Assembly (NCBI GenBank): GCA_949288855.1
Contig: CASELS010000004.1
Location: 1-64,000 of the forward strand
Direction: 5' to 3'
Origin: an uncultured Collinsella sp.
GTDB lineage: Bacteria > Actinomycetota > Coriobacteriia > Coriobacteriales > Coriobacteriaceae
Length of the DNA stretch: 64,000 nt
The notes beneath the pieces were generated by a model. The model made no database searches. It worked only from the letters and a program-made list of their open reading frames with translations, and was not told the DNA's origin. Below are positions 1-8,025 of this stretch, one piece after another (the first letter of the stretch is position 1; every line of letters starts with the position of its first letter). The position numbers and the translations under genes are program-made.

Positions 1-2259
1 AAGTATGCCTCTCACGTCCTCCGGCTCCAGGCGGCTCTCGACGGATGCCGCCGTCATAAGATCGCGCATCTCCTCCTCAACCATCTCGCGCAGGCGCGGG
101 TTGGGCAGCGCGCGCTGGTAGCAGGCAAGGCTCGTCCGGTAGTCGGCCATGCGCCACAGCACAAAGGCAAGTCGGTAATACGTGTAGGTGAACGACGCCG
201 GATCGACATCAAAGCGCAGGGCGCACTTGAGGTGCTCTGCCGCCTGCTCGAGCTCGCCGAGCTTAGACTCGGCCGTCGCTGCTGCGATATAGGCGCTCGG
301 CGAGGTTGGGCCGAGCTCAATCGCCTGCTCGGCGTAGGCAGCCCCGTGCTCGGCGTCGCCGTTGTCGGTGCAGAGGTTTGCGAGCGAGACATACGCGTCG
401 TACTGCGAGTCGTAGACGTAGCGATACCGCGCCGCCGGGTCGTCATCAACAAGCGCCATCGCAAGACGGGAAGCACCGCTTGCGCAATAGAGCGGCCGCA
501 GCCCGGTGTCCTCGTCCATAAGGCTCATGACGCCCAACAGGTCAGAGAGCTGCTGGGCTGCCTCGGCGGGGCGCCCCTCCGCAAGGGCAATCGCCTCGCG
601 CAGGCGCCCGACAAACGGATCCTCGCCCAGGTGGTACACGTCAAGGTCACATACGCGCTCTGCATGCAGAAACTCGGCGAGCTCTGGCGTGAGCGGACGT
701 GTGTCTTCCCAAACGGGGCAGGTGCGCACCGCGTCTGGATCGGCAAGCTCCTCTTCCGGCAAAACCAGGGGCTCCAGGCCCAGGCGCTCATTCAGCGTAA
801 ACGCGAGGCGCGCCGCCGAAAGCTGCTCTTTGATGCCGCTCACACTCCACGTGAGGCGCGGCTCAGAGAGAACGCCTTTGCGCACGACATCGTAGACCGA
901 CATGATGAAGCCCTCGCGGTCCACGTCCATGCGCAGCAGCGGGTGCTCAAACGCGCGATCCTCGCAAAGAAGGGCCTGTACGCTGCCCACGCCAGCGCTA
1001 GCACTGAACCCCACTGTGACAAGGGCGGCGGCAAGACGGAGCGCATAGGCGCTCGCCGCAACCTGCGTATGGCTGCTGCAATCCGCAAGGGGGCTTTCCT
1101 CCTCGCCCGGCGCCTGCGCGCGGACCCAGCGCGGCATTGCCTGCGCACCCGGGACCTTTGCGGTAATCGTCACCCTACCCTGCGCGGCGTTGGCGGAAAA
1201 ACGATAAGTAAGCCTAAACGGCAGCGCCAGCTCCTCAAGAAGGATGGCAACGCGCGTGCGCAGGTCCCACTCTCCCCCGCGCTCGCCCAGGGTACCAAAC
1301 AGGTTGAGCAGGCGATTATCGGTATACGCCGCTTGCTTGAGGTAGGGCGCCGTCTGGTCGGTAATGGCGCGCACGCAGCGCCAGTCCTCGTCGGCGCAAT
1401 ACGCCTCCGACGCCGCGGAAAGGTCATCCGACCCATTCTCGCGCGCACGACGGGCGATGAGGGCAAGGCGGTTGAGCGCCCCTTCCATCGTCGTCAGCGC
1501 ATCGAACTCCTCCTCGTTTAGCTCGTCAACATCGCACGCAAACCAAAAGAGCTCCGTTGTCCTTAAGCGGCGCAGCGAAATCTCGTGGCGCGCGGTAAGC
1601 GCTCGGAACGTAACGGGGTCGGCATCGGTCAGAATCCGCGCAGCATAGCGCTCAAAGCCCGAGGTGCGCTCGCCCCGTTTGACCTCGCCCAAAAACGCAT
1701 CGATCGCGTCTGCCGGAGGAAGGTCCAAAAACGCCGTCAGGACCTCGCCCATGCGCTTGCCTGCCGTGGCGCCCGCGTCCGCTCGCCGGGGAAGATGCCA
1801 GAAGGCAAGAAAAGCCACCGCGAGCATCTGCCGGAGGTTGACGGCAGATGCGCTGTACACAGGCCCAAGGTCGCTCACCGGGTCGACGAACGCGTAGGAC
1901 CCGTCATCAAGCTGCCTGTATTCCGTTACCTGCCGCTCCTCACCGCCCGGCGTATGCAACGCGATGCGCCCCGTGCGCGGGTTGCTGCGCCAGCGGGCGA
2001 CACTCAGGTCGGGCTCGCGCTCCGGGATAGCGTCGAGATATCCGTCGCAGGCGTAGACGTAGCCGCCATCTTGGATCCATGCAATCACGTACCCGGTGCG
2101 CTTACCTGTGAAATCGACAAGATAGCCAAGGCCTCCCTCGGGCTCCGGCATACCAGCGCCCCAGCACACGGCATAGCGCGAGCCTTCTGCCTGCGCAGGA
2201 AGCGCCTTAAGATGCGTTGCCTGGCAGAGCAGGGGAATCTTGATCTCTTGGGCAGACAT
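1..2259 (-). CDS. Hypothetical protein with C-terminal TPR-like repeats (3' end outside window)
   Basis: The frame is open for 753 codons from an ATG at 2259 to the left edge and no stop is reached, so the C-terminus lies outside the window. GAGAGAGG stands 8-9 nt before the ATG and supports this start. No enzyme motif is recognisable. The last ~120 visible residues (for example SPSAYIAAATAESKLGEL, then FVLWRMADYRTSLACYQRAL) look like helical TPR pairs, which would fit a scaffold or protein-binding role. There is no signal peptide or membrane segment, so it is probably cytoplasmic. It is divergent from the Nudix-Vsr gene, with a 167-bp gap between them. Function is unknown; the TPR call is by eye. 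Confidence 0.75.
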   Translation of the reverse strand, partial: MSAQEIKIPLLCQATHLKALPAQAEGSRYAVCWGAGMPEPEGGLGYLVDFTGKRTGYVIAWIQDGGYVYACDGYLDAIPEREPDLSVARWRSNPRTGRIALHTPGGEERQVTEYRQLDDGSYAFVDPVSDLGPVYSASAVNLRQMLAVAFLAFWHLPRRADAGATAGKRMGEVLTAFLDLPPADAIDAFLGEVKRGERTSGFERYAARILTDADPVTFRALTARHEISLRRLRTTELFWFACDVDELNEEEFDALTTMEGALNRLALIARRARENGSDDLSAASEAYCADEDWRCVRAITDQTAPYLKQAAYTDNRLLNLFGTLGERGGEWDLRTRVAILLEELALPFRLTYRFSANAAQGRVTITAKVPGAQAMPRWVRAQAPGEEESPLADCSSHTQVAASAYALRLAAALVTVGFSASAGVGSVQALLCEDRAFEHPLLRMDVDREGFIMSVYDVVRKGVLSEPRLTWSVSGIKEQLSAARLAFTLNERLGLEPLVLPEEELADPDAVRTCPVWEDTRPLTPELAEFLHAERVCDLDVYHLGEDPFVGRLREAIALAEGRPAEAAQQLSDLLGVMSLMDEDTGLRPLYCASGASRLAMALVDDDPAARYRYVYDSQYDAYVSLANLCTDNGDAEHGAAYAEQAIELGPTSPSAYIAAATAESKLGELEQAAEHLKCALRFDVDPASFTYTYYRLAFVLWRMADYRTSLACYQRALPNPRLREMVEEEMRDLMTAASVESRLEPEDVRGIL

Positions 2260-2426
2260 AGCAGTGCCTCTCTCACAATGGCGCCCGCGCGCGGCGCCAT
2301 AGAATGCGTCGGTTATGCCTTATCATAGCGATTCGCGCGGACACAAAGCGGGGCGACGGCGATACGATTTTGCTAGCATAGGACCTCGGAACCTAAAAGA
2401 TTCAGCGCCGCCGGGAGGTGAGCACC

Positions 2427-3278
2427 TTGAAGACGATACATGTTGCCGCCGGCATCATCCGCCGCACGGCCGAATCATCCGCTGCGTCCGAGGTGCTCGC
2501 CGTGCAACGCGGCTACGGAGAGATGCGCGGCCTGTGGGAATTCCCCGGTGGCAAGGTCGAGCGTGGCGAGACGCCCGAGGACGCCTGTCGGCGCGAACTT
2601 GCCGAGGAGCTCGATGTCACCGTTGAGAACCTGCAGGCGTTCTACACCGTCGAATATGACTACCCCGACTTCCACCTGTCGATGGAGTGCTTCTTCTGCG
2701 AGATTGCCGCAGGAAGCCCGCGCCTCTCTGACCGGCAGCTCGGCCTGCGTTGGATCGAGCGCGAACGCCTTAGCGAGCTCACCTGGATGCCCGCCGACAC
2801 TGGCCTTGTAGAGGCCCTTGCCCAGGGAGACGATGTCGAGCACGCGGTCGAGGGAGAACTCGTACGCCGCCGCGCCGCCATCCGCAAGTCCATGAAGGGC
2901 AACAAGCGCGCCAACACTAAGCCCGAGTTACTCGTGCGCCAGCGTCTGCGCGCCGCCGGGCTCACGGGGTACCGCCTGCAGTGGGCCAAGGCGCCCGGCA
3001 GGCCCGACATCGCCTTCCCCGGGCGCAAGATCGCCATCTTTGTGAACGGCTGCTTCTGGCATCGCTGCCCCCACTGCCACCCGAGCGTGCCCAAGCGCAA
3101 CACCGCCTTCTGGGAGGCAAAGTTTCGCCGCAACGTCGAGCGCGACCGCGCAGCGGTAGCGGCACTCGAGGAGGCGGACTGGACCGTCATCACCATCTGG
3201 GAATGCGAGCTCAAACGCGCCAACATTGATAAGACCATGGAGCGCGTGCTCGCCCAGATTCAAGCCGCAAGCGCGTAA
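2427..3278 (+). CDS. Nudix hydrolase fused to Vsr-type mismatch endonuclease
   Basis: One 283-residue frame carries two DNA-quality-control domains. Residues 1-~135 are a MutT/NudG-like Nudix domain. Its Nudix box at 42-64 reads G-KVERG-E-TPEDACR-RE-L-A-EE and keeps all catalytic acidic residues; the late Gly is Asp. Residues ~153-283 match very-short-patch repair endonuclease Vsr: NTKPEL near the start, PGRPD with the catalytic Asp at 194, NGCFWH with His212, RRNVERDR, and IWEC. Cys209, Cys214, His216 or Cys217, and Cys260 are plausible zinc ligands. Family knowledge: Nudix enzymes cleave damaged or surplus NTPs, and Vsr nicks next to T:G mismatches left by 5-methylcytosine deamination. A GTG at 2418 lies inside the ribosome binding site (GGGAGGTG). 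The TTG at 2427, 8 nt downstream, is the better start. No cytosine methyltransferase is adjacent. The fusion is seen directly; coupled function is inferred. Confidence 0.9.
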   Translation: MKTIHVAAGIIRRTAESSAASEVLAVQRGYGEMRGLWEFPGGKVERGETPEDACRRELAEELDVTVENLQAFYTVEYDYPDFHLSMECFFCEIAAGSPRLSDRQLGLRWIERERLSELTWMPADTGLVEALAQGDDVEHAVEGELVRRRAAIRKSMKGNKRANTKPELLVRQRLRAAGLTGYRLQWAKAPGRPDIAFPGRKIAIFVNGCFWHRCPHCHPSVPKRNTAFWEAKFRRNVERDRAAVAALEEADWTVITIWECELKRANIDKTMERVLAQIQAASA

Positions 3279-3442
3279 ATCTGCTGGTAGCACACCATAC
3301 ACGAACCCTTCAAGGCGATATAAGTAAGTCTTCACTCACCCATAAGTATTGCCCGTCGCAACTTGGCGATAATGGCATCAGCGCGCCGGAAACGCAGCAG
3401 CCGGCGCGCGTGCGACACCGGCGGATGAGCGAGGAGGCTGCG

Positions 3443-3664
3443 ATGCATAGCTCCCAACATGCAGCCTTAGCACGGCGACACCAATACCGTGAGGACCGTG
3501 CCGGTAACCTCTCCTTCCCCCCAACACAGAGAACCTGCCTCCTCTGCTCTCCCCCGCCGCCGTCCGTCCGCTCGAACGACCAGGTGCAAAACCTTCTGCA
3601 TTCGAGCGACGAGCTCCTCGAGGCGCTCAACACCTTGCCGCTTGCCCATGCGGCTAACCTATAG
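3443..3664 (+). CDS. Possible small protein (73 aa)
   Basis: This short frame has a good ribosome binding site (GAGGAGG, 5 nt before the ATG) and a GATAAT -10-like hexamer at 3368-3373. The product is Ser/Pro/Arg-rich in the middle (PPPPSVRSND) and ends in a leucine-rich, probably helical tail (SDELLEALNTLPLAHAANL). It resembles no family I know. A 60-codon frame also exists on the opposite strand (3467-3649) but lacks a well-placed ribosome binding site. The 534-bp gap between the Nudix-Vsr and GNAT genes is otherwise empty apart from the hairpin at 3706-3736, so this is either a real small gene or leader-like sequence. Confidence 0.3.
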   Translation: MHSSQHAALARRHQYREDRAGNLSFPPTQRTCLLCSPPPPSVRSNDQVQNLLHSSDELLEALNTLPLAHAANL

Positions 3665-3705
3665 CTCTCCTTTTGTCCGCAACCACGGACGTACTACAGC
3701 GACTC

Positions 3706-3736
3706 GCAAGAGGCCGGCCACGCGCCGGCTTCTTGC
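3706..3736 (+). terminator. GC-rich hairpin
   Basis: GCAAGAGGCCGGC and GCCGGCTTCTTGC flank a 5-nt loop with one mismatch in the stem. There is no T-tract after it, so termination is uncertain. It lies 42 bp after the small ORF. Confidence 0.4.
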
Positions 3737-3812
3737 ATTCCTGCCGCCTCGCGCTCCTGCCTAAAGCTTCGCTTACAATGGGTTTTGGCTGATATGGGCG
3801 AAAGGAATACCT

Positions 3813-4244
3813 GTGATTATCGAGAACGCTTCGCTTGCTGACACTGATCGCGTGATTGAACTTGAGTGCATTCTCGAAAACACCGAACTCGATTACGAGC
3901 GCTGCAAGGAAATCTTTGAGGCGCAGCTCGAAAACCCCTCGTTTTGCTGCTTGGTTGCCCGCGAGATGCCCGGCGCGCCGGCAGCGGGGCTTATCAACAT
4001 CCGCTTTGAAGACCAGCTGCACCACGCCGCACGCGTGGCAGGTGTGCTGGAGCTTGTTGTCGACCCCGCCTGCCGCGGAGGCCGCAGTGGGCAAGCACTC
4101 TTCCGCGCCGGGTGTGCCGCCGCACGCGAGGCAGGTTGTGTCCAGATCGAGCTCGAGACAAGCTGCTGGCGCGAAGGCGCGCATCGCTTCTACGAGCGCG
4201 AGGGCATGGTCTTCGATCACCGCTACTACACGATGAAGCTGTAA
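3813..4244 (+). CDS. GNAT family N-acetyltransferase
   Basis: A 143-residue single-domain GNAT protein expected to transfer an acetyl group from acetyl-CoA to an amine; the substrate is unknown. The fold order is visible: N-terminal strand and helix (IIENASLADTDRVIELE), the central strand VAGVLELVVDPACRG, the pyrophosphate-binding loop RGGRSGQALF, then the C-terminal GAHRFYEREGM segment typical of the family. The start is GTG with GAAAGGA 6 nt upstream. It stands alone, is followed by a strong terminator, and converges on htpG. Motif V plus the RxxGxG-type loop make the family assignment firm. Confidence 0.85.
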   Translation: MIIENASLADTDRVIELECILENTELDYERCKEIFEAQLENPSFCCLVAREMPGAPAAGLINIRFEDQLHHAARVAGVLELVVDPACRGGRSGQALFRAGCAAAREAGCVQIELETSCWREGAHRFYEREGMVFDHRYYTMKL

Positions 4245-4395: not shown

Positions 4396-6429
4396 CTACA
4401 TCAGCTCGCACACGTTCTTGGCAAAAGCCACCGGATCCTCGGGCAGGATACCCTCAACCAGGAGCGCCTGGTCGTAGAGAAGGCCAGCGTAGAGCTTAAC
4501 CTTATCGGCGTCGCCGGCCTCCTGCGCAGCGGCGAGCTTGGCAAATACCGGGCTCTTCGCATTGAGCTCGAGCACGCGCTGGGCGGTAGGCATACCCTCG
4601 ATATCGCCCTCGGGACCGCGCTTTAGGACCTTCTCCATCTCAAGCGAAAGCGGGCCCTCAGTGGTGATGCAGGCGGGCGCGTCATCGGCCGAGACCAAAC
4701 GCGAAGAGACCGCGACCTTCTGAACATGGTCGCCAAGCGCCTCCTTCATGGCGCTAAAGAGGTCGGCGTGCTCCTTGGACGCCTCCTCGGCCTCCTTCTT
4801 CTCATCCTCGGACGCAAGGTCCAAATCACCCGTCGCAACGTTCTTGAGCTCCAGATGACGATCCTCGAGCTCGGGCTCGGCACCGTCTGCCACGGCCTTC
4901 TCGGCCGCCTCGCGCGCCGCATCGTCCTCATAGACCTTCGGCATATCGCGCGCCACATACTCGCGCATGGACTGGAAGGTGAACTCGTCCACATCCTGTG
5001 TGCACAGAAGCACGTCAAAGCCGCGTGCGAGCACGCCCGTAACCACCGGCATCTTGGACAGACGGTCGCGATCGTCGCCGGCGGCAAAGTAAATGGCCTT
5101 CTGGCCCTCGGGCATCGCCTTGGCGTACTCGGCGAGCGTGATCATCTTCTGCTCCTTGGCGCTCCAGAAGAGCAGCAGGTCCGCAAGCTCCGTGGCCTTT
5201 GCACCATAGCTCGCGTAGATGCCGTACTTGAGGCCGCGTCCGAAGTTCTCGAAGAACTTCTCATATGCCTCGCGGTCATTGTCGCGCATGTCCTCCAAGT
5301 CGGACGTCACGCGCTTTTCGATACGGCGCGCGATGGCGCGAAGCTGGCGGTTCTGCTGCAGGGTCTCGCGGGAGATGTTGAGCGACACATCGGCGGAGTC
5401 GACCACACCGCGGACAAAGTTGTAGTAGTCGGGCAGAAGGTCGGCGCACTTCTCCATAATCATGACGTTGGAGCTGTAGAGCGCAAGACCCTTCTCGTAG
5501 TCCTTGCTGTAGAGGTCAAACGGCGCGCGCCCGGGGATAAACAGCAGCGCATCGTATTCGAGGGCGCCCTCGGCATGGAAGCTGATGGTGCGGGCGGGAT
5601 CCTCAAAATCATGGAAGGTCGACTTGTAGAACTCGTTGTAGTCGGCGTCCTCCACGTCCTCGCGACGCTTCTTCCAGATGGGCGTCATGGAGTTGATGGT
5701 CTCAAGCTCCTCGTAATCCTCGTACTCGGGCTTGTAGTCGTCGCCGGCGTCCTCGGGCTTGGGCTTCTGGCGGGACTTCGTCACCATCATCTGGATGGGA
5801 TAGCGCACGTAGTTGCTGTAGCGGCGGATAAGATCCTTGAGACCCCACTCAGAGAGGTAGCGATCGTAGTTCTCGCCTTCCTCGCCGGCATCGCCCGGCA
5901 CGTTCTCGCGCAGGGTCAGGATAACGTCGGTGCCGTGCTCGGCGCGCTCGCCGGGCTCGATGGTGTAGCCCTCCAAACCGTCGGACTCCCACACGTGCGC
6001 CTCGTCCTCACCAAAGGCACGCGACACCACGCGCACGCGCTTGGCAACCATGAAGGCGGAGTAGAAGCCCACACCAAACTGGCCGATGATGTCGAGCGCG
6101 TCACCCTGGCTCTCGGCGTTCTCGGTCTTAAACTCCTCGCTGCCGGAGTGGGCGATGGTGCCCAGGTTGCGCTCGAGCTCCTCGGCGGTCATGCCGATAC
6201 CGTTGTCCGAAACCGTGATGGTGCGCGCATCGCGATCAAACGAAACGCGAATCGCCAGGTCAGCCTGGTCGACGTGCATGCTCTCGTCGGTCAGGCTCTT
6301 AAAGTTGAGCTTGTCCACCGCGTCCGATGCGTTGGAGATCAGCTCGCGCAGGAAAATCTCCTTGTTGGTGTAGATCGAGTTGATCATGAGGTCGAGAAGC
6401 TTTTTACTCTCTGTCTTGAATTTGCGCAT
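4396..6429 (-). CDS. htpG: Molecular chaperone HtpG (Hsp90)
   Basis: A full-length 677-residue bacterial Hsp90: an ATP-driven cytosolic dimeric chaperone. The N-terminal GHKL ATPase domain is plain: ELISNASDAVDKL with the Mg-binding Asn, DNGIGM, and GQFGVGFYSAF. The middle domain (KDYEKGLALYSSNVMI, SLNISRETLQQN with the catalytic Arg) and C-terminal dimerisation domain follow. An upstream extension of the frame to 6486 exists, but GGGAAGGA lies 7 nt before the ATG at 6429 and MRKFKTESKKLLDLM is where homologues begin. The gene is monocistronic between a terminator and the element at 6629. I see no convincing CIRCE or HAIR operator upstream. Confidence 0.97.
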   Translation of the reverse strand: MRKFKTESKKLLDLMINSIYTNKEIFLRELISNASDAVDKLNFKSLTDESMHVDQADLAIRVSFDRDARTITVSDNGIGMTAEELERNLGTIAHSGSEEFKTENAESQGDALDIIGQFGVGFYSAFMVAKRVRVVSRAFGEDEAHVWESDGLEGYTIEPGERAEHGTDVILTLRENVPGDAGEEGENYDRYLSEWGLKDLIRRYSNYVRYPIQMMVTKSRQKPKPEDAGDDYKPEYEDYEELETINSMTPIWKKRREDVEDADYNEFYKSTFHDFEDPARTISFHAEGALEYDALLFIPGRAPFDLYSKDYEKGLALYSSNVMIMEKCADLLPDYYNFVRGVVDSADVSLNISRETLQQNRQLRAIARRIEKRVTSDLEDMRDNDREAYEKFFENFGRGLKYGIYASYGAKATELADLLLFWSAKEQKMITLAEYAKAMPEGQKAIYFAAGDDRDRLSKMPVVTGVLARGFDVLLCTQDVDEFTFQSMREYVARDMPKVYEDDAAREAAEKAVADGAEPELEDRHLELKNVATGDLDLASEDEKKEAEEASKEHADLFSAMKEALGDHVQKVAVSSRLVSADDAPACITTEGPLSLEMEKVLKRGPEGDIEGMPTAQRVLELNAKSPVFAKLAAAQEAGDADKVKLYAGLLYDQALLVEGILPEDPVAFAKNVCELM

Positions 6430-6628
6430 GAAAACGTCCTTCCCGTTGACGTGCCGGCAAGGGCGCCTTTGCTTGGCAGCGCTCACCTCACCGTATCATC
6501 TCGTTAACGCACACCATAGTACCCATATTCTCACTCATAAAACCTTAGTCTCTAAGACTTAGATTATTTATCACAGCATCATCGCAGCGCGTCGTATTTC
6601 TTTCTTACAAAGCTAGTGAAGAGCAAAA

Positions 6629-6812: not shown

Positions 6813-7068
6813 CACGGCCAACCAGAAAGCGGAAGCTCGAACAAAAGTTTGCCGAATCCGCAGGGCACAAAATACCCATTTGAATTATCTCTGTCATCTT
6901 CAGGATTCTCCCACTTGCGAGCGTGGTGGAAAACTACGCGCCATAGGTATCACGACCGCGATAGTTAGATTCCCGTCAAGAATCTGTCTATCGGTTAATT
7001 ATTCCTTCCGGTGCATACCGCTCCCAACGGATCGCCGTAGCTCGATTACCGTACCTTATTCTGGTTGT

Positions 7069-8025
7069 ATGAGCATCTGCTGTGTCTGTGACAAATCCGC
7101 TCTGGAGCTTTTTCGTTCGAGCGGTCGGCTCCTCCCCGAGCTCCTCGATGCGCCTCGCACATCGGATCTTGCCCCATGCGCCATTCCTCCTCGCATCATG
7201 CTCGAGGACGAAATGACGCGCGCTGGCGTGGCCACTAAGCCTTATCATCTGCTAGTGGCATCGTCGAACAAGCGTCACCATAGAGATGATGTCGTCTGCC
7301 ACAGGCGCGAAACGCCCCTATCCCGTCGAACGCTTATCAAAGCTTCAAAAGACCTTTATGTCACAAGCCCCGAATATACATTTCTCCAGCTGGCAAAATC
7401 TGGAGAATACGATGAGGTGGATCTCGCCTTGATAGGTTTCGAGCTATGTGGGACCTACGTACTAGACGGCTCGTGGGATGGCTTCACCAATCTCGAGCGC
7501 CCTATTACATCAACGGCAAAAATCAAACGCTTTCTGGAACATGAACGAGGGAGAAAAGGCGCAGCGCTCGCAGCCCAAGCAATCGACCTTGTTCTTGATG
7601 CCTCGAATTCCCCCATGGAATCTGTTTTGGCAGCGCTCTTCACGTTTCCCCGCCGACTTGGCGGTCTCGGTCTTGGCCCTGCCGCCCTCAACCATCCCCT
7701 TGTCTGCGGAGATGACGAGCGCTATATCGACCTCGCACTTTATCTTGAAAAGATTGGTCTTGAATATAAGGGTAAGAAATATCATTCCATCGAACAGTCC
7801 GGGAGAGACGACCGTCGTCAAAACATGATTACAGCTTCTGGCTACACGATTTTCAATGTCTGGTATGAGGACCTCGTCGAGGAGCACCTGTTTAATAACC
7901 TTGTATCTCACGTTACCGCTGCGCTCAGCACGCGTTACAGAAACCGAGACAAGGGGTTTGCGGCTCGACAGAGACTTCTGCGAGTCCGGCTGCTGCCCGC
8001 ATTCAAAGCATACGCTCACGAATGA
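7069..8025 (+). CDS. Vsr/DUF559-like (PD-(D/E)XK fold) protein, possible nuclease
   Basis: I chose the ATG at 7069 (318 aa). A longer frame starts at 6880, but its first 63 residues do not look like protein, and homologous proteins of this kind begin near SICCVCDKSALELFR. Ribosome binding site support is weak. The N-terminal half resembles the recognition domain of large coriobacterial hypothetical families (VTSPEYTFLQLAKSGEYDEV, GFELCGTY). The C-terminal half carries a restriction-endonuclease-like pattern: SPMES with Glu184, YIDLAL with Asp221, then LEYKGKKYH giving Glu232-x-Lys234. Such D...ExK spacing is typical of the Vsr/DUF559 fold. The gene is visibly poorer in GC than its neighbours and is flanked by related inverted-repeat elements, which suggests horizontal arrival. 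Activity and role (defence, antitoxin-like or selfish) are unknown. Confidence 0.7.
   Translation: MSICCVCDKSALELFRSSGRLLPELLDAPRTSDLAPCAIPPRIMLEDEMTRAGVATKPYHLLVASSNKRHHRDDVVCHRRETPLSRRTLIKASKDLYVTSPEYTFLQLAKSGEYDEVDLALIGFELCGTYVLDGSWDGFTNLERPITSTAKIKRFLEHERGRKGAALAAQAIDLVLDASNSPMESVLAALFTFPRRLGGLGLGPAALNHPLVCGDDERYIDLALYLEKIGLEYKGKKYHSIEQSGRDDRRQNMITASGYTIFNVWYEDLVEEHLFNNLVSHVTAALSTRYRNRDKGFAARQRLLRVRLLPAFKAYAHE

Follow-up and report, generated by a model that had tools for sequence, protein, structure and literature searches.

The window analysed here, a 64,000-nucleotide stretch of DNA from an uncultured Collinsella, carries near its start a gene in which a Nudix hydrolase and a Vsr-type mismatch endonuclease are encoded as a single chain. 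The product has 283 amino acids, begins at a TTG codon, and is read without an internal stop (Table 1). An alternative GTG at 2418 overlaps the Shine–Dalgarno sequence of the gene. The neighbouring gene (1-2259) lies in the opposite orientation, and the fusion gene is therefore probably transcribed alone. Downstream are a GNAT acetyltransferase gene (3813-4244) and then htpG (4396-6486, minus strand). Further along the window, a 381-amino-acid protein (6880-8025, plus strand) has, towards its C-terminus, a weak, below-cut-off match to the REase_MTES_1575 nuclease family, and the C-terminal stretch of the product of 5509-6495 in locus L217 looks similar to that of this protein.

Table 1. Features of the Nudix-Vsr fusion gene in the window.
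Feature	Position	Strand	Basis
Nudix-Vsr fusion gene	2427-3278	+	Open reading frame; Pfam and NCBIfam profiles; homologues
Shine–Dalgarno sequence GGAGG	2414-2418	+	From sequence; TTG lies 8 nt downstream
Nudix domain (MutT/NudG-like, PADLOC PDC-S07), residues 1-133	2427-2825	+	Profiles; AlphaFold2 model; Foldseek
Flexible linker, residues 134-160	2826-2906	+	Low pLDDT; interdomain lengths in the family
Vsr mismatch endonuclease domain, residues ~150-283	2874-3275	+	TIGR00632, 112 bits; 1cw0, 1.7e-21
Nudix box G42-V64, GX5EX7REUXEE intact	2550-2618	+	Core kept in 62/62 fusions
Asp124, the MutT Asn119 base-recognition position	2796-2798	+	Alignment; Asp likewise in NudG and 3GWY
Catalytic Asp194 (E. 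coli Vsr D51)	3006-3008	+	Conserved in 66/66
Catalytic His212 (E. coli Vsr H69)	3060-3062	+	Conserved in 66/66
C209, C214 and C217, three of four probable zinc ligands	3051-3077	+	Each in 66/66
Cys260, fourth probable zinc ligand	3204-3206	+	Cys in 62/66, His in the remaining 4

The two domains and their nearest relatives

Pfam places a NUDIX domain at residues 5-124 (1.9e-18) and a Vsr domain at 153-213 (2.1e-18). The AlphaFold2 model likewise consists of two confident domains (mean pLDDT 89), with values mostly above 90 in the Nudix block and disorder mainly at residues 140-159, across most of which pLDDT falls below 50. Chance domain matches are ruled out by the agreement of Pfam, NCBIfam, and PDB matches. 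The original prediction of one chain carrying both domains is thus borne out by the reading frame, the profiles, and family-wide conservation; the Nudix box at residues 42-64, Asp194, and His212 are present as it claimed. Its view of the protein as a genuine two-domain repair enzyme is also supported, with the activities of both halves predicted from homology.

The Vsr half passes the cut-offs of both family models, scoring 112 bits against NCBIfam TIGR00632 (cut-off 97.85) and 66.4 bits against Pfam PF03852 (cut-off 27), and matches the structure 1cw0 by sequence. When aligned with E. coli Vsr, residues E25, D51, and H69 correspond to E167, D194, and H212 of the fusion, and M14, W68, K89, and N93 to M156, W211, K232, and N236; all of these are invariant in the 66 Vsr sequences from the family. 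The intercalating F67 corresponds to F210, which is Phe in 61 of the 66 and Tyr in five. By family model and by its catalytic and intercalating residues, this half is a Vsr endonuclease, predicted to nick T:G mismatches. The zinc positions C66, H71, C73, and C117 align with C209, C214, C217, and C260. A re-ordered C-C-H/C set of ligands had been proposed, but H216 is variable in the family (His in 32, Lys in 25, and other residues in the rest). With four cysteines at the zinc positions, the site is therefore most likely Cys4, one Cys standing in place of His71.

The Nudix half is harder to assign. The core of its Nudix box is intact, with Asp at position 63 where the consensus has Gly. NCBIfam MutT models score below their cut-offs (83.3 versus 97.9 bits, and 84.6 versus 148 bits), as does the NudG model (56.4 bits), while the PADLOC model PDC-S07 matches at 133 bits. 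At the position of MutT Asn119, 60 of the 62 fusions have Asp, as do NudG and 3GWY, which counts in favour of 5-Me-dCTP as the substrate. The best solved match, by both sequence and fold, is 3GWY (Foldseek 2.2e-12), an enzyme with a kcat/Km of 4.8e6 M-1 s-1 on 5-Me-dCTP, 4.4e6 on 5-MeOH-dCTP, and 6.7e6 on 5-Me-CTP (PMC5158307). The second fold match is Mycobacterium smegmatis MutT2 with 5mdCTP (5zro). The match to 3GWY and the nearly constant Asp make a modified dCTP the likely substrate, as the original prediction had suggested. However, identity to 3GWY is only 35%, against 34% to MutT and 29.5% to NudG, and MutT folds score nearly as high as 3GWY in the fold search. In the Nudix tree, moreover, the fusion does not group with 3GWY, which like NudG lies elsewhere; it groups with Coriobacteriaceae Nudix genes that adjoin DUF3427 helicases. 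The assignment to 5-Me-dCTP is consequently a lead rather than proof.

Distribution and selection

Of 67 family genomes, 62 carry the fusion in one open frame and with its motifs intact, all nine genomes of the genus included. The family is taken as Coriobacteriaceae, with whose members the Collinsella records agree. Interdomain spacing among these fusions ranges from 2 to 114 amino acids. The remainder comprises four genomes of a single genus with a stand-alone Vsr, and one genome (G039) with a Nudix gene and no Vsr. A public Collinsella aerofaciens record also gives the fusion as one CDS, annotated merely as 'Vsr'. A sequencing frameshift joining two genes, raised earlier as a possible refutation, and an assembly artefact are excluded by these genomes and by that record.

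Both halves are under strong purifying selection, with a median dN/dS between close species of approximately 0.03-0.04, and htpG lies near the fusion in several genera. Within the family, the fusion is a core gene passed on vertically and not an accessory of one restriction-modification system. A Prevotella locus (L016) has a Nudix-Vsr fusion of its own, which falls into a different Nudix clade. This suggests two independent fusion events, and the Prevotella form thus appears to have arisen separately.

G039, the sole family genome without Vsr, has several peculiarities. In its locus L217 (6815-8566, minus strand), the Nudix domain lies in frame behind a GFO/IDH/MocA oxidoreductase in a 583-amino-acid reading frame, and htpG is about 1.4 kb away. 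The sampled sequence of G039 has a GC content of 48%, compared with 58-63% for three Collinsella that carry Vsr. Across loci L273-L292, GATC is strongly depleted relative to related genomes (GACC/GATC bias 2.25), a pattern that the action of a GATC-cutting enzyme might leave.

Cytosine methyltransferases and genomic neighbours

Several observations bear on a possible role of the fusion in guarding against mutagenesis by 5-methylcytosine (5mC). No C5-methyltransferase was found in the neighbourhood of the fusion gene, where the original prediction of its absence holds; for the genome it does not. With respect to the relation to METHYLTRANSFERASES, the genome has one C5-methyltransferase, on a contig other than that of the fusion. 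Its identity to E. coli Dcm is 50%, target-recognition region included, and its presence argues for a 5mC guard. An HNH endonuclease gene adjoins it. Locus L083 encodes a Dcm-like C5-methyltransferase with roughly 150 extra N-terminal residues (1447-2886, minus strand) and an adjoining HNH endonuclease (2973-3806, minus strand), probably a restriction-modification pair that is unlinked to the fusion.

The textbook pairing of Vsr with Dcm, on which the original prediction drew, is not binding in Coriobacteriaceae. In 20 of 59 near-complete family genomes, a C5-methyltransferase was not detected; all 20 keep Vsr, 17 of them as the fusion. Protection of a bacterium's own 5mC therefore cannot be the sole reason for retention. 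Relaxed selection on Vsr was not seen in genomes that lack the methyltransferase, where the median dN/dS is 0.043 versus 0.028 in those that carry one. Vsr under selection where no cytosine methyltransferase is detected is not what the textbook pairing predicts.

In outgroup families, a related Vsr adjoins a different C5-methyltransferase of about 450 residues, which again counts for a 5mC guard; relatives of this methyltransferase occur unlinked in Coriobacteriaceae. In sister families, the presence of Vsr tracks that of a C5-methyltransferase (23/31 versus 4/12, p=0.03), and 12 of 43 genomes are without Vsr. Word bias was compared for C-to-T pairs. In the E. coli control, CCAG/CTAG is the top 4-mer pair (2.29). 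It is also the top pair in Vsr-positive Collinsella, at 0.90-1.13 versus 0.51 in the Vsr-less G039, a comparison confounded by composition and relatedness.

The same Nudix family also occurs in other settings. In some Bacteroidales, the Nudix and vsr genes are separate neighbours, and a C5-methyltransferase is frequently encoded within a few kb; in Treponema saccharophilum, the Nudix gene lies near two C5-methyltransferases. Both arrangements count for a 5mC guard. From the first loci, Vsr seemed to accompany the Nudix gene almost without exception, which an even sample of 295 Bacteroidales genomes did not bear out: among 50 Nudix genes, Vsr lies within 7 kb of six, including the seed and one weak Vsr match. 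This is above rough expectation, yet a minority state. A C5-methyltransferase lies within that distance of 4 of the 50. Both counts weigh against the guard, as do neighbours that are Schlafen-type helicases or unrelated genes. PDC-S07 is patchy in these Bacteroidales (49/295 genomes). Other neighbours are PLD-helicase-DUF3427 genes, labelled by PADLOC as type IV methyl-directed restriction, which count for it.

In the genome studied here, two convergent genes on contig C62 (50-1471, plus strand, and 1468-1968, minus strand) encode a Nudix paralogue, 46% identical to the Nudix half of the fusion, and a DUF3427 helicase-type protein, a type IV methyl-directed restriction enzyme according to PADLOC. 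The same pairing recurs in two further loci (L093 and L094). In three Bacteroidales loci (L223, L232, and L238), a Nudix gene of this family adjoins a Schlafen group 3 helicase (PADLOC PDC-S41), possibly as a two-gene defence unit.

Explanations and known systems

The reading we favour, to which we give an even chance, is that the fusion is a bifunctional guard against 5mC mutagenesis, for which we infer the substrate, mismatch context, and pathway. The N-terminal Nudix domain would hydrolyse 5-methyl-dCTP to the monophosphate before it can be incorporated, and would probably accept other 5-substituted cytidine triphosphates as well. Salvaged 5-methyl-dCMP, from degraded host or foreign DNA, would thus be kept from entering the chromosome at random. 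Where deamination of 5mC in DNA has left a T:G mismatch, the C-terminal Vsr domain would nick 5' of the mismatched T, and the nick would initiate very-short-patch repair, completed by polymerase I and ligase. With a flexible linker between them, the two domains would probably act independently. Two defences against 5mC mutagenesis, one in the nucleotide pool and one in DNA, would then be linked in one conserved enzyme, and this Nudix family, hitherto listed solely as a phage-defence candidate, would gain a possible role.

A broader function in mutation avoidance, partly replacing mismatch repair, is somewhat unlikely. Here, T:G nicking would be broad in context and independent of methylation, and the Nudix half would clear mutagenic dNTPs. 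No MutS scored above the cut-off in 149 genomes of the class, and NucS gave partial or weak matches and no convincing full-length one, in agreement with the published lack of NucS and MutS-MutL in all analysed Coriobacteriia (PMC5290159). V.NgoAXIII nicks T:G mismatches across a broad range of sequence contexts (PMC6116569), a Vsr unlinked to a methyltransferase is active in Caulobacter (PMC12907096), and Vsr persists in the 20 methyltransferase-less genomes under nearly as strong selection. With no MutS above the cut-off, no convincing NucS, and broad-context Vsr enzymes known, the fusion could cover part of the missing function. It may serve as a substitute safeguard against mutation in a family without the usual mismatch-repair genes, and it is a candidate answer to how Coriobacteriia limit mutations. 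However, a Vsr without strand discrimination would turn roughly half of the T:G errors of replication into mutations if it acted in an unrestricted context, and known Vsr biochemistry thus points to a poor general mismatch-repair enzyme. The tracking of methyltransferases by Vsr in sister families also argues against this function, as does the lack of Vsr in 12 of 43 genomes there. Furthermore, methyltransferases come and go, so that absence from one sequenced strain is no proof of long absence. The stronger form, a true stand-in for mismatch repair in which a resident broad-context T:G nickase needs no cognate methyltransferase and is joined to a dNTP-pool cleaner, is unlikely; if it were true, one polypeptide would cover both pool damage and mismatches.

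Equally doubtful is a reading in which the Nudix half acts as an ordinary MutT, an 8-oxo-dGTP diphosphatase, and the fusion does no more than combine two unrelated antimutators with housekeeping roles. MutT models do outscore the NudG model, and many family genomes show no other Nudix gene with this query. Against this, every MutT model falls below its curated cut-off, Asn119 is replaced by Asp in nearly all fusions, and the closest fold is that of a 5-Me-dCTPase; this Nudix family is also found next to vsr elsewhere, and there is another fusion. An antiphage module, in which the Nudix half destroys phage-modified dCTP such as 5-hydroxymethyl-dCTP and Vsr nicks phage DNA, is very improbable. 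The PADLOC candidate status of the family, its relatives in defence-type loci, and the similar activity of 3GWY on 5-MeOH-dCTP and 5-Me-dCTP (PMC5158307) are consistent with such a module. A core gene that lies near htpG in several genera is nevertheless unlike patchy defence genes, and an attack of Vsr on phage DNA is without evidence.

The fusion is a conserved and apparently so far undescribed union of two known kinds of enzyme; no paper on a Nudix-Vsr fusion was found in the open-access literature, a scope that is no proof of absence. Among characterised systems, E. coli Vsr (1cw0, 1vsr, 1odg) shares the catalytic, intercalation-site, and other aligned residues E25, D51, H69, M14, W68, K89, and N93, together with the zinc Cys positions. 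The fusion differs from it in having Cys for H71, Val for T63, and Asn for H64, an added Nudix domain, a gene apart from dcm, and a host class without MutS. V.NgoAXIII is likewise a Vsr enzyme, one with broad T:G context (PMC6116569), and so is Caulobacter VsrA, a DUF559-type protein whose gene is unlinked to a methyltransferase gene (PMC12907096); neither has a reported Nudix domain. On the Nudix side, the Bacteroides fragilis 5-Me-(d)CTP pyrophosphatase (Q5LBB1/3GWY; PMC5158307) is the top match in sequence and fold and shares the Asp at the N119 position, whereas it is a stand-alone enzyme, 35% identical and apart from the fusion in the tree. Mycobacterial MutT2 shares the fold, and E. coli NudG, a 5-Me-dCTP/CTP pyrophosphatase, shares both the fold and the Asp, yet both are stand-alone proteins. 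PDC-S07, finally, is a single Nudix gene that is often found in defence loci, whereas in the fusion it is joined to Vsr.
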